Assembly (NCBI GenBank): GCA_017619585.1
Contig: JAFZSA010000013.1
Location: forward strand, 1-64,000
Origin: Bacteroidaceae bacterium
GTDB taxonomy: Bacteria > Bacteroidota > Bacteroidia > Bacteroidales > Bacteroidaceae
Direction of reading: 5' to 3'
DNA: 64,000 nucleotides
Every line of letters begins with the position of its first letter. Position 1 is the stretch's first letter. This document shows positions 535-54,504 of the stretch, piece by piece. The translations under genes and the position numbers were made by a program. The notes below the pieces were generated by a model. It made no database searches and was not told where the DNA came from. It saw only the letters and a program-made list of their open reading frames with translations.

Positions 535-3507
535 ATGGCAAAAGAGTACAATTTTAGAGAAATTGACCAGAAATGGCACCAGAAATGGGTGGCCAACAAA
601 ACGTACAAAGTGGTTGAAGATGAGAGCCGCAAGAAGTTCTATGTGCTGAACATGTTCCCCTACCCCAGCGGTGCGGGACTGCATGTTGGTCACCCCTTAG
701 GTTATATAGCCAGCGATATATATGCCCGTTACAAGAGACTGCAGGGCTACAATGTGCTGAACCCCATGGGCTATGATGCCTATGGACTACCTGCCGAGCA
801 GTATGCCATTAAGACAGGCCAGCACCCCGAGAAGACAACATTTGCCAACATAGACCGCTATCGCGAGCAGTTGGACAAGATAGGCTTCAGTTTCGACTGG
901 GACCGTGAGGTACGTACCTGTACCCCCAATTACTACAAGTGGACACAGTGGGCTTTCCAGAAGATGTATAAGCACTTCTATAGCCTCACCCCCCTTACCC
1001 CCTCTCCAAAGGGCGAGGGGGAGACTTCTGGCAAGGCAAGACCCATTGAGGAACTGATTGCTTACTTTGAGAAATATGGTACAGAGGGATTGGATGCCTT
1101 TGGCGTTGCCCAGAGCAATGAACTCTGTTTTACTGCTGAAGAGTGGAACAACTGGGACGAGAAGAAACAGAGCGATGTGCTGATGAACTACCGCCTGGCC
1201 TTCATGGGCGAGACAATGGTGAACTGGTGTCCTGCACTGGGAACCGTACTAGCCAATGATGAGGTAGTAAATGGCGTGAGCGAACGAGGTGGTTATCCCG
1301 TAGAACAGAAGAAGATGCGCCAATGGTGTCTGCGTGTCAGCGCCTACAGCCAGCGTCTGCTGGACGGCTTAGAGACTATTCAGTGGAGCGAGAGCATCAA
1401 GGAGACACAGAAGAACTGGATTGGACGCAGCGAAGGAACCGAGGTCGAGATACCTTATGTCCTCTCCCCCTCGGGGGAGTCGGAGAGGGGTCGATTCACC
1501 ATCTTCACCACCCGTGCCGATACCATGTTTGGCGTAACCTTCTTTGTACTGGCTCCTGAGAGTGAGTTGGTAGATAAGGTTACCACACCCGAGCAGCGTG
1601 CAGCCGTTGACGAATACATCAAGTATGTAAAGAGTCGTACCGAACGCGAGCGTATGATTGACCATACCGTAACAGGTGTCTTCAGCGGTGCATACGGTAT
1701 AAACCCCATCACAGGCGACAAGTGTCCCATCTACATAGCAGAATATGTTTTGGCAGGCTACGGTACAGGCGCCATCATGGCTGTTCCTGCCCACGATAGT
1801 CGTGACTATGCTTTTGCCAAGCACTTCAACCTGCCTATCATCCCCTTGGTAGAAGGTGCAGATGTTAGCGAGGAGAGCTATGATGCCAAGGAAGGTATTG
1901 TTATGAACTCACCTGTCAGTCCTGACAAGAGTGTAGTGTATGATGGCGAGAGCCTGAACTTGAACGGCAAGACCATCAAGGAGGCTATTGCCGAGACCAA
2001 GCGCTTTGTGAAGGCTCACAACCTGGGTCGTGTGAAGGTGAACTACCGTCTGCGTGATGCCATCTTCAGTCGTCAGCGCTACTGGGGCGAGCCCTTCCCC
2101 GTATATTACAAGAACGGAATTCCACAGATGATTCCTGAGGAGTGTCTGCCTATAGAGTTGCCCCAGGTGGATAAGTTCCTGCCCACAGAAACAGGAGAGC
2201 CCCCATTGGGCAACGCACAGATATGGGCTTGGGATGAACAGAACAAGAAGATTGTTGACAAGAAACTCATTGATGAAAAGACCGTCTTCCCCATAGAGCT
2301 CTACACTATGCCAGGCTTTGCAGGAAGTAGTGCCTACTATCTGCGCTATATGGATCCCCTGAATACAGAGGCTCTGGTTAGCGAGAAGGCTGCCGGCTAC
2401 TGGCAGAACGTGGATTTGTACGTGGGTGGTAGCGAGCATGCTACCGGTCACCTGATCTATAGCCGATTCTGGAACAAGTTCCTCTTCGACCTGGGCGTAA
2501 GCAAGAAGGACGAGCCCTTCCAGAAACTTATCAACCAAGGTATGATTCAGGGTTGGTCAAGTTTCGTATATCGTCTGAGAAACACCAACAAGTTTGTCAG
2601 CTTCGATCTCTTGGAAGAGAAATACGATGATGCCAAGAAGAAGAACCTGTACTTCTATCAGGGTACAGAAGCAGACCCCGTATATGCCGACATCAGCATG
2701 GTAAGCGGCAATGTACTGGATGTAGAGAAACTCAGACAGTGGACACCTGAGTTCCGTGACGGCGAGTTTATCCTGAACCAGAACGGTCAGTATATTGTCA
2801 GCCAGGCTATTGAGAAGATGTCTAAGTCGAAATACAACGTAGTGAACCCCGATGATATCTGCGAGAACTACGGAGCTGACACATTGCGTCTGTACGAGAT
2901 GTTCCTGGGCCCCATTGAGCAGTCTAAGCCTTGGGACGTAGCCGGTATCGACGGTTGCTTCCGCTTCCTGAAGAAGTTCTGGGGTCTGTATTGGGACAAG
3001 GAAGGCAATCTGGCAGCAGATGACTCAGAGGCCACAGCCGAGAATATGAAGACCTTGCACAAGCTTATCAAGAAGGTGACAGCCGATATTGAGGAGTTCT
3101 CGTACAACACCAGTATCTCTGCCTTCATGGTAGCTGTCAACGAGCTTTCAAGCCAGAAGTGCCGCAGCAAGCAGGTTTTGTCAGTATTACCTGTGCTGAT
3201 AGCTCCCTTCGCCCCACATATCGCAGAAGAGCTGTGGGAGGCTTTGGGCAATAGCACCAGCGTATGCGATGCCCAGTGGCCTGCCTTCGATGAAAAGTAC
3301 TTGGTGGAGAGCTCTGTTAAGTTGGGCGTCCAGTTCAATGGCAAGGTACGCTTTGCTATGGACTTCCCCGCTGATGCCACACCCGACCAGATGGTTCAGA
3401 TGGCTACCTCTGCCCCTGATGCACAGAAGCACCTCGAGGGTATGCAGATTGTAAAGACCATTGCCATCCCCGGCCGCATCGTAAACATCGTGGTGAAACC
3501 TGCTTGA
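535..3507 (+). CDS. leuS: Leucine--tRNA ligase
   Basis: Cytoplasmic class I aminoacyl-tRNA synthetase that charges tRNA-Leu. The HIGH-type motif is HVGH at residues 50-53 and KMSKS is at 761-765. Between them lies the CP1 editing domain (TIFTTRADTMFG about residue 323, then GTGAIMAVPAHD). The C-terminal anticodon-binding region is complete. At 990 residues it is longer than the E. coli enzyme (860). Part of the excess is two stretches that look like translated palindromic repeats: residues about 150-163 before the sequence KARPIEEL, and 309-319 inside the editing domain. The frame is open throughout, so the gene is probably functional. Two promoters lie directly upstream. Confidence 0.97.
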   Translation: MAKEYNFREIDQKWHQKWVANKTYKVVEDESRKKFYVLNMFPYPSGAGLHVGHPLGYIASDIYARYKRLQGYNVLNPMGYDAYGLPAEQYAIKTGQHPEKTTFANIDRYREQLDKIGFSFDWDREVRTCTPNYYKWTQWAFQKMYKHFYSLTPLTPSPKGEGETSGKARPIEELIAYFEKYGTEGLDAFGVAQSNELCFTAEEWNNWDEKKQSDVLMNYRLAFMGETMVNWCPALGTVLANDEVVNGVSERGGYPVEQKKMRQWCLRVSAYSQRLLDGLETIQWSESIKETQKNWIGRSEGTEVEIPYVLSPSGESERGRFTIFTTRADTMFGVTFFVLAPESELVDKVTTPEQRAAVDEYIKYVKSRTERERMIDHTVTGVFSGAYGINPITGDKCPIYIAEYVLAGYGTGAIMAVPAHDSRDYAFAKHFNLPIIPLVEGADVSEESYDAKEGIVMNSPVSPDKSVVYDGESLNLNGKTIKEAIAETKRFVKAHNLGRVKVNYRLRDAIFSRQRYWGEPFPVYYKNGIPQMIPEECLPIELPQVDKFLPTETGEPPLGNAQIWAWDEQNKKIVDKKLIDEKTVFPIELYTMPGFAGSSAYYLRYMDPLNTEALVSEKAAGYWQNVDLYVGGSEHATGHLIYSRFWNKFLFDLGVSKKDEPFQKLINQGMIQGWSSFVYRLRNTNKFVSFDLLEEKYDDAKKKNLYFYQGTEADPVYADISMVSGNVLDVEKLRQWTPEFRDGEFILNQNGQYIVSQAIEKMSKSKYNVVNPDDICENYGADTLRLYEMFLGPIEQSKPWDVAGIDGCFRFLKKFWGLYWDKEGNLAADDSEATAENMKTLHKLIKKVTADIEEFSYNTSISAFMVAVNELSSQKCRSKQVLSVLPVLIAPFAPHIAEELWEALGNSTSVCDAQWPAFDEKYLVESSVKLGVQFNGKVRFAMDFPADATPDQMVQMATSAPDAQKHLEGMQIVKTIAIPGRIVNIVVKPA
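984..1024 (+). repeat. GC palindromic repeat inside leuS (copy 1)
   Basis: Begins with the AGCCTCACCCC-type sequence also seen at 3545, 3634, 48998 and 49052, followed by a C-run / G-run hairpin (CCCTCTCC with GGCGAGGG). It is read as LTPLTPSPKGEGE in an otherwise conserved synthetase. Confidence 0.75.
1461..1490 (+). repeat. GC palindromic repeat inside leuS (copy 2)
   Basis: CCTCTCC, CCCTCGGGGG and GGAGAGG form a near-perfect hairpin. It is translated as LSPSGESERG between a beta-strand segment and the conserved TIFTTRADT block of the editing domain. Confidence 0.75.
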
Positions 3508-3808
3508 TGGTTAGCGGTTAGCGGTTAGAGGTTAGAGGACAGAAGCCTCACCCCAGCCCTCTCCAAAAGAGAGGGAGATTAGAAGTTAGAGAACAAGGAT
3601 TAGCGGTTAGAGGTTAGAGGTTAGAGGTTAGAAGCCTCACCCCAGCCCTCTCCAGAAGAGAGGGAGATTAGAAGTTAGAGGACAAGGATTAGGGATTAGG
3701 GAGTAGAGAGTAGCGGTTAGAGGTTAGAGGTTAGAGGACAGGGATTAGGGATTAGCGTAAGACTATGAACTATGAACTATGAATTATGACCTAAGAACTA
3801 TGAACTAT
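3508..3808. repeat. Composite repeat block between leuS and yitT
   Basis: The whole 309-base gap is repetitive. Heptad units (GGTTAGA, GGTTAGC, GGATTAG) alternate with two copies of a GC palindrome at 3545-3579 and 3634-3668, giving a direct repeat of about 89 bases. The last 45 bases switch to a second heptad type (GAACTAT, GAATTAT) and run to within 10 bases of the yitT start. I see no promoter in it. Confidence 0.85.
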
Positions 3809-54394: not shown

Positions 54395-54504
54395 ACCCCC
54401 TGTCCCCCTTTAGGGGAAATGGGGTTCAATTCAAAATTCAAAAGGCAATATTCAAATTTCAAAAAATTATAACCTAATTCCCCCTAAAGGGGGTCATGGG
54501 GTCT
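54393..54504. repeat. Intergenic REPIN-like element with heptad core
   Basis: It starts AGACCCCC (overlapping the ferredoxin stop codon) and ends GGGGTCT. The arms contain CCCCCTTTAGGGG and CCCCCTAAAGGGGG facing each other. The centre is ATTCAAA heptads. Same termini as the in-gene element at 53624. Confidence 0.85.

Follow-up and report, generated by a model that had tools for sequence, protein, structure and literature searches.

Repetitive extragenic palindromic (REP) sequences, and the doublets of such sequences known as REPINs, have been described in several bacterial lineages. In Pseudomonas fluorescens, 14 of 1,067 most abundant REP 16-mers overlap genes (PMC3116915), while REPs and REP dimers are also reported in frame within open reading frames, including those of tRNA synthetases and tRNA-modifying enzymes, with recB struck at about one site in two Xanthomonas species and REP clusters encoding 43–82 amino acids (aa) (PMC3733652). 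The same source describes Rickettsia palindromic elements (RPE), and subclasses of TnpAREP/RAYT (REP-associated tyrosine transposase) proteins are described from Bacteroidetes (PMC6006769). Here, we analyze a stretch of 64,000 nucleotides (nt) from a Bacteroidaceae bacterium (contig JAFZSA010000013.1, positions 1 to 64,000, hereafter the window), in which C-run/G-run hairpins recur both between and inside genes. An earlier note on this DNA had proposed a REPIN-like family under selection to stay readable. We consider it probable that these hairpins form a dispersed, non-autonomous, REPIN-like family, which has multiplied in one genus and sits in intergenic DNA as well as in protein loops.

The existence of the family was tested in a strand-symmetric manner: a hairpin with a C/T-rich left arm remains C/T-left on the opposite strand, and hairpins with a G/A-rich left arm serve as a mirror control of equal complexity. 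With perfect stems of 6 bp, the window contains 14 C/T-left hairpins compared to 1 G/A-left hairpin, such that the GC-rich palindromic family is real, and the window together with 80 related loci (1,522,544 bases) contains 121 compared to 12. All three sequence words that the note had quoted as shared are found in the window (AGCCTCACCCC at 982, 3544, 3633, 48998, and 49052; CTCCCCCTTTGGGGGAG at 25774 and 48920 and, in complementary form, at 25831; and CCCTCTATGGAGGGG at 53643), and the first copy is where the note saw it, except that it starts at 982 rather than at 984. When inverted repeats of the window with arms separated by no more than 60 nt were listed, the two longest, at 53624–53719 and 25763–25858, proved to be family members, and no Rfam family matches the repeats at gathering thresholds. 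The mirror controls, and the recovery of the family by DNA similarity as described below, indicate a sequence family beyond GC richness. Intergenic copies do show a bias toward 3′ gene ends, from which their median distance is 35 bp vs 93 bp from 5′ ends (53 each), as would suit transcription terminators; however, given these same controls and the location of about half of the copies within genes, we rejected both chance or base composition and termination as the main role, and regard an origin as chance GC-rich hairpins or terminators as scarcely credible.

Judged by eye from aligned units, the repeat unit is ~33 bp long and consists of a C-rich tag typically beginning AG[AC]CC that is followed, after a few spacer bases, by a short C-run/G-run hairpin, such as CTCCCCC-TTT-GGGGGAG, CCCTCCCC-GA-GGGGAGGG, or CCTCTCCC-TC-GGGAGAGG. 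The alignment comprises 42 units hand-picked from 80 oriented ones, themselves 80 of the 132 hairpins discussed below, and counting covariation on it was uninformative, since MAFFT misaligned the hairpin loops and since forming a hairpin had been the criterion for choosing units. Many copies are single units, and some are inverted pairs with complementary ends (25762–25859, 53624–53719, and 54393–54504), which is the REPIN layout and bears out the architecture that the note had suggested. Paired elements measure roughly 65 to 120 bp, some being longer with nested units, and gaps of 20–79 bp are found for 26 of the 44 neighboring hairpins less than 400 bp apart. Terminal inverted repeats, a hallmark of miniature DDE transposons (MITEs), are also present, for example 10 bp in L059 (L and G numbers are our labels for loci and genomes). 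When the element in the window's miaB gene was used as a DNA query, matches were obtained in 11 of 14 genomes, 94 of them in G009 (where a palindromic unit can match both strands), and many of the listed matches are the ~33-bp unit alone, at 90–100% identity and with the spacer missing; the unit is therefore the conserved part.

In one genus of gut Bacteroidales, 53 of the 61 genomes searched contain the strict hairpin CTCCCCN{2,6}GGGGAG; copy numbers across the 61 are 0–104, compared to 0–5 for the reversed form of the hairpin as control, and at least 10 strict hairpins are present in 35 of these 61 genomes vs 18 of 295 genomes across the order (the latter tallied by hand). The family has multiplied in this one genus. 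To place copies relative to genes, we used 0.92 Mb made up of the window and samples of G009 (24 stretches, four picked for synteny and 20 by contig number) and G072 (20 stretches, 14 of which are from contigs with listed pattern matches, which inflates the hairpin density). Most of the window can be aligned collinearly with G009 (uncultured Prevotellaceae, contig CAMKTJ010000001.1), at 81–93% identity in the main blocks, mostly near 89%. In this sample, 75 of 132 hairpins lie within predicted genes, in line with the note's estimate of roughly half, compared to ~110 expected from coding density, and thus genes are under-hit, although to a far smaller degree than in P. fluorescens. In short palindromic units, spaced inverted pairs, high dispersed copy number (counted here in relatives), and a mixture of singlets and doublets, the family resembles the REPINs and REP doublets of Pseudomonas (PMC3116915); it differs from them in its units, in that no RAYT gene flanked by the same repeat was found, and in not being mostly extragenic, although its genic share was obtained with a different detection method.

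Within the window, the host genes identified by Pfam are LeuS, a MiaB-type radical SAM/TRAM protein, GH92, GH2, GH51, an M56 protein with TonB_C, and a 4Fe-4S protein, and we could locate in-frame copies in all of the genes that the note had named (leuS at two sites, miaB, the M56/BlaR1-like gene, 4Fe-4S, GH51, GH92, and GH2). Those in GH2 (43535–43569) and in GH51 at 44252 are weak, the hairpin at leuS site 1 is imperfect, and of ten genic hairpins counted in the window by a later scan, the one at 41884–41903 does not resemble the family. Comparison with orthologues revealed empty sites for three loops of LeuS, for a loop of MiaB, and for a histidine kinase. In-frame palindromic inserts with empty-site orthologues, in proteins that are likely functional, are also what is described of the Rickettsia elements (in PMC3733652), to which we liken the family by description only; the present bacteria belong to another phylum, and a large share of the copies here is intergenic.

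Insertion was followed in LeuS, for which we aligned the best 80 of 118 loci and, as for MiaB, took the minimum number of changes from a tree that excluded the columns of the inserts (a structure model was poor, with a mean predicted local distance difference test (pLDDT) score of 67.6, and was not used). Of the 80 rows that extend to site 1, which follows MxxxF[YF], 9 have it filled, with at least 4 changes on the LeuS tree. The note had named the same peptide segments at the same places in distant genera as a refutation; among these rows this was not seen, the site-1 segment being confined to the 9 filled ones, none of which is titled Prevotella. At site 2, close to where the editing domain begins, the segment ranges from 9 to 42 residues, requiring a minimum of 18 changes for segments of at least 12 aa and of 8 for segments of at least 20 aa, and the site contains different elements in different loci: AGCCTCACCCC-type pairs in L002 and L076, AGACCC-type pairs in L019 and L072 (with L012 similar), a GGAGCAA heptad palindrome in L018, and a GCCCCC-type pair in the Prevotella metagenome-assembled genomes (MAGs) L060 and L067. 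Hairpins with 5-bp stems number 28 in the 3,507 nt of site 2 vs 44 in the 227,379 nt of the rest, with mirror counts of 4 and 47; elsewhere than in the loops, hairpins of LeuS show no excess over the mirror. Site 3, after RFLKKFW, is filled in 9 of 80 rows with at least 7 changes, the fillings being partly non-hairpin, and the Prevotella pair seen at site 2 in L060 and L067 is found here in L069. We also observed simple tandem repeats at site 3, namely NNQSNLNNQSNL and AQSAQSAQS (L029/L030 and L067). L053 and L059, which are closely related (92% identical over the alignment), differ in occupancy: the former is empty, and the latter is filled by an element that is 122 bp long with 10-bp perfect inverted ends, AGACCCTCTC/GAGAGGGTCT.

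A loop of MiaB, following QNVNSY, shows the same behavior. Our alignment comprises the window and 57 loci, which represent 55 of the 61 genomes (two loci each in G036 and G050), leaving out L128 (G048), which is partial, partial matches in G063 and G074, and G047, G060, and G075, which gave distant matches only. Across these 58 rows the loop varies from 8 to 52 residues, with hairpin elements or remnants in 13 rows and heptad arrays in 2 (labels assigned by eye), and the tree requires at least 12 changes of type, or at least 8 for loops of at least 19 aa. Hairpins with 5-bp stems number 15 in 3,477 nt of loop compared to 17 in 77,007 nt elsewhere in the genes, with mirror counts of 2 and 7. 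In L262, only AGCGGGGAGGGGGCTTTT is left, which corresponds to the 3′ end of such an element, and L262 groups on the tree with five other rows, the filled L108 among them (SH-like approximate likelihood ratio test (SH-aLRT) support 91); the remnant is the scar of an element. Residues 210–234 of the window's MiaB are unmatched in the solved MiaB structure 7mjv_A, in which the aligned blocks are one residue apart, and in a structure model (mean pLDDT 74.9) residues 210–235 are irregular with pLDDT under 50, although the model lends weak support because segments of the conserved core (126–160) also score low.

Comparing the window with G009, we find 8 internal indels of at least 4 aa among 40 orthologous protein pairs, all in 4 genes that carry elements; 5 of the 8 lie at element sites and 3 not clearly so (this count skips 12 columns at the start and 8 at the end of the alignment, and 6 further window open reading frames are without an orthologue). 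In a histidine kinase of 545 aa in G072 (L252:16011-17648, minus strand) and an open frame of 578 aa in G014, the insert has been amplified in tandem, with seven SP..GE units in G072 and nine in G014 at a spacing of 17 aa. By its motifs, this insert lies between the H and N regions of the kinase. A second place, within the ATPase domain, holds a further pair. In G002, the insert at the first place is shorter and that at the second is a different one, and the orthologues in G073, G064, G068, and G039 are empty at both places.

Such in-frame inserts in otherwise intact genes, the strong variation of the loops among related species, and the amplified kinase insert could all be taken to favor the note's proposal of an element that diversifies proteins and is selected for readability, in which case intergenic copies should be more open than their own shuffles. 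They are not, as the mean number of open frames out of six is 3.61 in intergenic copies vs 3.56 in shuffled ones (~47 nt) and 2.42 vs 2.42 (~67 nt), while genic copies do exceed their shuffles (3.60 vs 2.80 open frames, ~68 nt), as survivors must. The 75 genic copies use the three reading frames 31, 27, and 17 times, and we therefore rejected a privileged reading frame. The under-hitting of genes, the scars, and the empty sisters speak against the proposal as well, and we consider it very unlikely. Readability looks like survivorship in tolerant loops, which is the simplest reading. The term "protein-diversifying" is apt insofar as it describes an outcome (loop turnover, a scar, and one tandem amplification); as a function, it is unproven.

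We searched the 61 genomes for HUH transposases with Pfam Y1_Tnp and with a profile of long RAYT-like proteins (alignment A1). Y1_Tnp matches occur in 22 of the 61 genomes (12 of 22 in an earlier set) and long RAYT-like proteins in 40, and hairpins are more abundant where the latter are present (median 23 vs 5; Spearman 0.41, p 0.001, without correction for kinship). This would agree with the family being true REPINs moved by resident RAYT-like HUH proteins, whether long (335–475 aa) or short (Y1_Tnp, ~150 aa), as would a few neighborhoods: by eye, C/G-run palindromes with shorter stems lie 2 bp (L091) and 50 bp (L185) after the stop codons of RAYT-like genes, although these are doubtful, and a family inverted pair lies within 260 bp upstream of the short Y1 gene of L082. 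We treat these three as hints only to the mobilizer. However, a C-left hairpin is found within 200 bp of only 3 of 56 distinct long RAYT-like genes, and none of the three reads as the family repeat, such that the RAYT partner that the note had suggested looking for does not emerge; the visible flanks contain other palindromes, also in L082, and G041 (104 hairpins; the genome may be incomplete), G057, and G070 have at least 30 copies each yet no match in either search. True REPINs with such a partner thus seem to us a serious possibility, if one that we on balance doubt. Long RAYT-like proteins as proven partners were rejected, as their visible flanks bear other palindromes, and so were open reading frames flanked on both sides by the repeat, since none of the 6 in 0.92 Mb appears transposase-like by eye (first 90 residues).

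The long RAYT-like proteins form a multi-copy family in their own right (335–475 aa), with PDHxH and YxxDNPRR motifs and roughly 150 extra C-terminal residues; members of A1 include L092:1174-2382, L091:1180-2328, and L201:911-2008, several being flanked by distinct palindromes of their own, and Pfam Y1_Tnp scores three that were checked below its cut-off or misses them. HUH proteins flanked by atypical palindromes recall the TnpAREP/RAYT subclasses of Bacteroidetes (PMC6006769), from which these proteins differ in combining PDHxH/YxxDNPRR with a C-terminal extension, and the visible palindromes at their flanks are not of the C/G-run family. Short Y1 genes (open frames of ~130–195 aa) in L082, L085, and L094 (also L083 and L084) sit amid palindromes such as GCCCTGAAAGGGC and CCCAGGGCATCGCCCTGGG, and by layout these loci are REPtron-like, built on a different repeat.

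Taken together, a dispersed non-autonomous family accounts for these data if its units move as elements, probably in trans through a single-strand Y1/HUH-type transposase, with frame-breaking copies being lost and retention in genes being mainly a matter of tolerance. Genic copies would then remain in the protein as loop segments, whose later fate may be decay, reduction to a scar, or tandem amplification. Several observations weigh against this account. The mobilizer itself was not identified in either transposase search. Nor did we find a clean insertion with target-site duplication among the filled/empty pairs compared (window/G009 and L053/L059), and since L059 shows a net gain of 93 bp for its 122-bp element, some host loop bases have been lost. 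At LeuS site 1, where 9 rows are filled, hairpins are mostly imperfect: only L001 and L012 among these rows have a perfect 5-bp stem, which L022, L035, and L036 also have despite being empty. G023 has 57 strict hairpins yet no match to the miaB element, and therefore the "family" contains unrelated-looking subfamilies. The genic share is based on gene calls from a home-made codon model, and some of the 132 hairpins are unlike the family. Finally, 79 of the 80 LeuS loci are titled MAG or "uncultured", mostly from rumen or gut, the exception being Prevotella disiens L075.

Homologous recombination of gene segments could explain presence and absence with no movement of elements. On the LeuS tree, G009 is the sister of the window (SH-aLRT 99) yet has an empty site 1, and L007 and L008 carry window-clade flanks around this site; site 1 has partly been spread or erased by local recombination. 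As a general explanation, recombination is nevertheless unlikely, as it leaves unexplained the different elements at one and the same site, the Prevotella element at sites 2 and 3, and the dispersed copies. In a stronger version, REPIN-like hairpins and 7-nt tandem arrays, as small mobile repeats, would supply new loop segments continually in these gut Bacteroidales: unrelated repeats would land in a few core-enzyme loops time and again, fill them, be cut down to scars, disappear, and be replaced, with loop evolution driven mainly by mobile DNA; we advance this tentatively, and suspect that it goes too far.

With in-frame REPs and REP dimers already in print (PMC3733652), the note's remark that REPIN-like architecture and in-frame insertion would be unusual together was too strong. 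What the present loci add to the GTAG/CGTC REPs of that report is a family without such a tag, an unusually high genic share, the refilling of loops by unrelated repeats across many species, a scar, and a 7- to 9-fold amplification; no report of such a family in rumen Bacteroidales appears among the matches listed from the open-licence literature. Over dozens of related species, one essential enzyme can be observed at a given position without an insert, with a fresh one, or with a remnant. This natural series, together with the amplified kinase, makes two questions accessible to testing, namely the places at which proteins tolerate insertion and the way in which mobile DNA gives rise to new disordered segments. 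A further consequence is that indels in the LeuS and MiaB loops are poor phylogenetic markers in these bacteria. The copies in the window are listed in Table 1; by eye, the GH92 and GH2 units both fall in the n-region of the signal peptide and contribute Arg/Gly-rich residues.

Table 1. REP-like units and inverted pairs in the window, with their state in related loci
Feature	Position	Strand	Remark
REP-like unit in leuS site 1, peptide SLTPLTPSPKGEGET, imperfect hairpin	982..1026	+	site empty in 71/80 LeuS rows
REP-like unit in leuS site 2, peptide VLSPSGESERG	1462..1492	-	near Pfam editing-domain start; recurrent site
Intergenic REP-like unit after leuS	3544..3580	+	within 89-bp duplicated block with GGTTAGA heptads
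Second copy of the 3544 unit	3633..3669	+	in second 89-bp block
REP-like unit across stop codon of gene 10595-12337	12336..12371	+	similar unit in G009
REPIN-like inverted pair, 98 bp, in miaB (minus strand), peptide APSPLPLWGSTPNPESFNNSDETLPQRGSQEGV	25762..25859	.	also in G009; related units dispersed in relatives
REP-like unit near start of GH92 gene (minus strand)	41547..41579	+	conserved in G009
REP-like unit, intergenic, GH92/GH2 gap	41655..41687	-	
Weak REP-like unit near start of GH2 gene (minus strand)	43535..43569	+	conserved in G009
REP-like unit in GH51, peptide GPLSNSPEGERL	43993..44026	+	no such hairpin there in G009
GH51 hairpin	44252..44268	+	similar hairpin in G009
Intergenic REP-like unit	46402..46441	+	not seen in opposing G009 stretch; spot aligns poorly
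M56/TonB_C gene, outer inverted pair 48905-48939 / 49133-49212	48905..49212	+	
M56/TonB_C gene, inner units	48998-49036 and 49052-49096	+	second inner unit absent in G009
Inverted pair, 96 bp, ends AGACCCTC/GAGGGTCT, in 4Fe-4S gene	53624..53719	.	G009: in-frame AATTCAA heptads there
Inverted pair, 112 bp, ends AGACCCC/GGGGTCT, at/after 4Fe-4S gene stop	54393..54504	.	absent in G009

Besides the palindromes, tandem arrays of period 7 dominate in these genomes, with 9 in the window vs 0–1 for periods 5–6 and 8–12, 29 vs 0–4 in G009, and 14 vs 0–9 at other periods in G072. Arrays in the window lie at 13889–13967, 58313–58349, 59981–60083, 3504–3796, and 20684–20723. Many different heptamers are involved, and some arrays are in frame in genes, sometimes in loops that elsewhere hold a hairpin element. 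Very small palindromic mobile sequences, the small dispersed repeats (SDR) of cyanobacteria, were reportedly found associated with heptamer tandem repeats by Elhai and co-workers in 2008. At 58333–58547 of the window, AATTCAT-type and GCTAACC-type heptads are combined in a tandem repeat with a 43-bp unit, present about five times. Arrays of the heptamer TAACTGA in Bacteroidetes have been published (PMC4679880). The single Rfam match in the window is a SAM-II riboswitch at 20603–20662 on the minus strand (54.4 bits), upstream of the minus-strand gene at 19263–20528.

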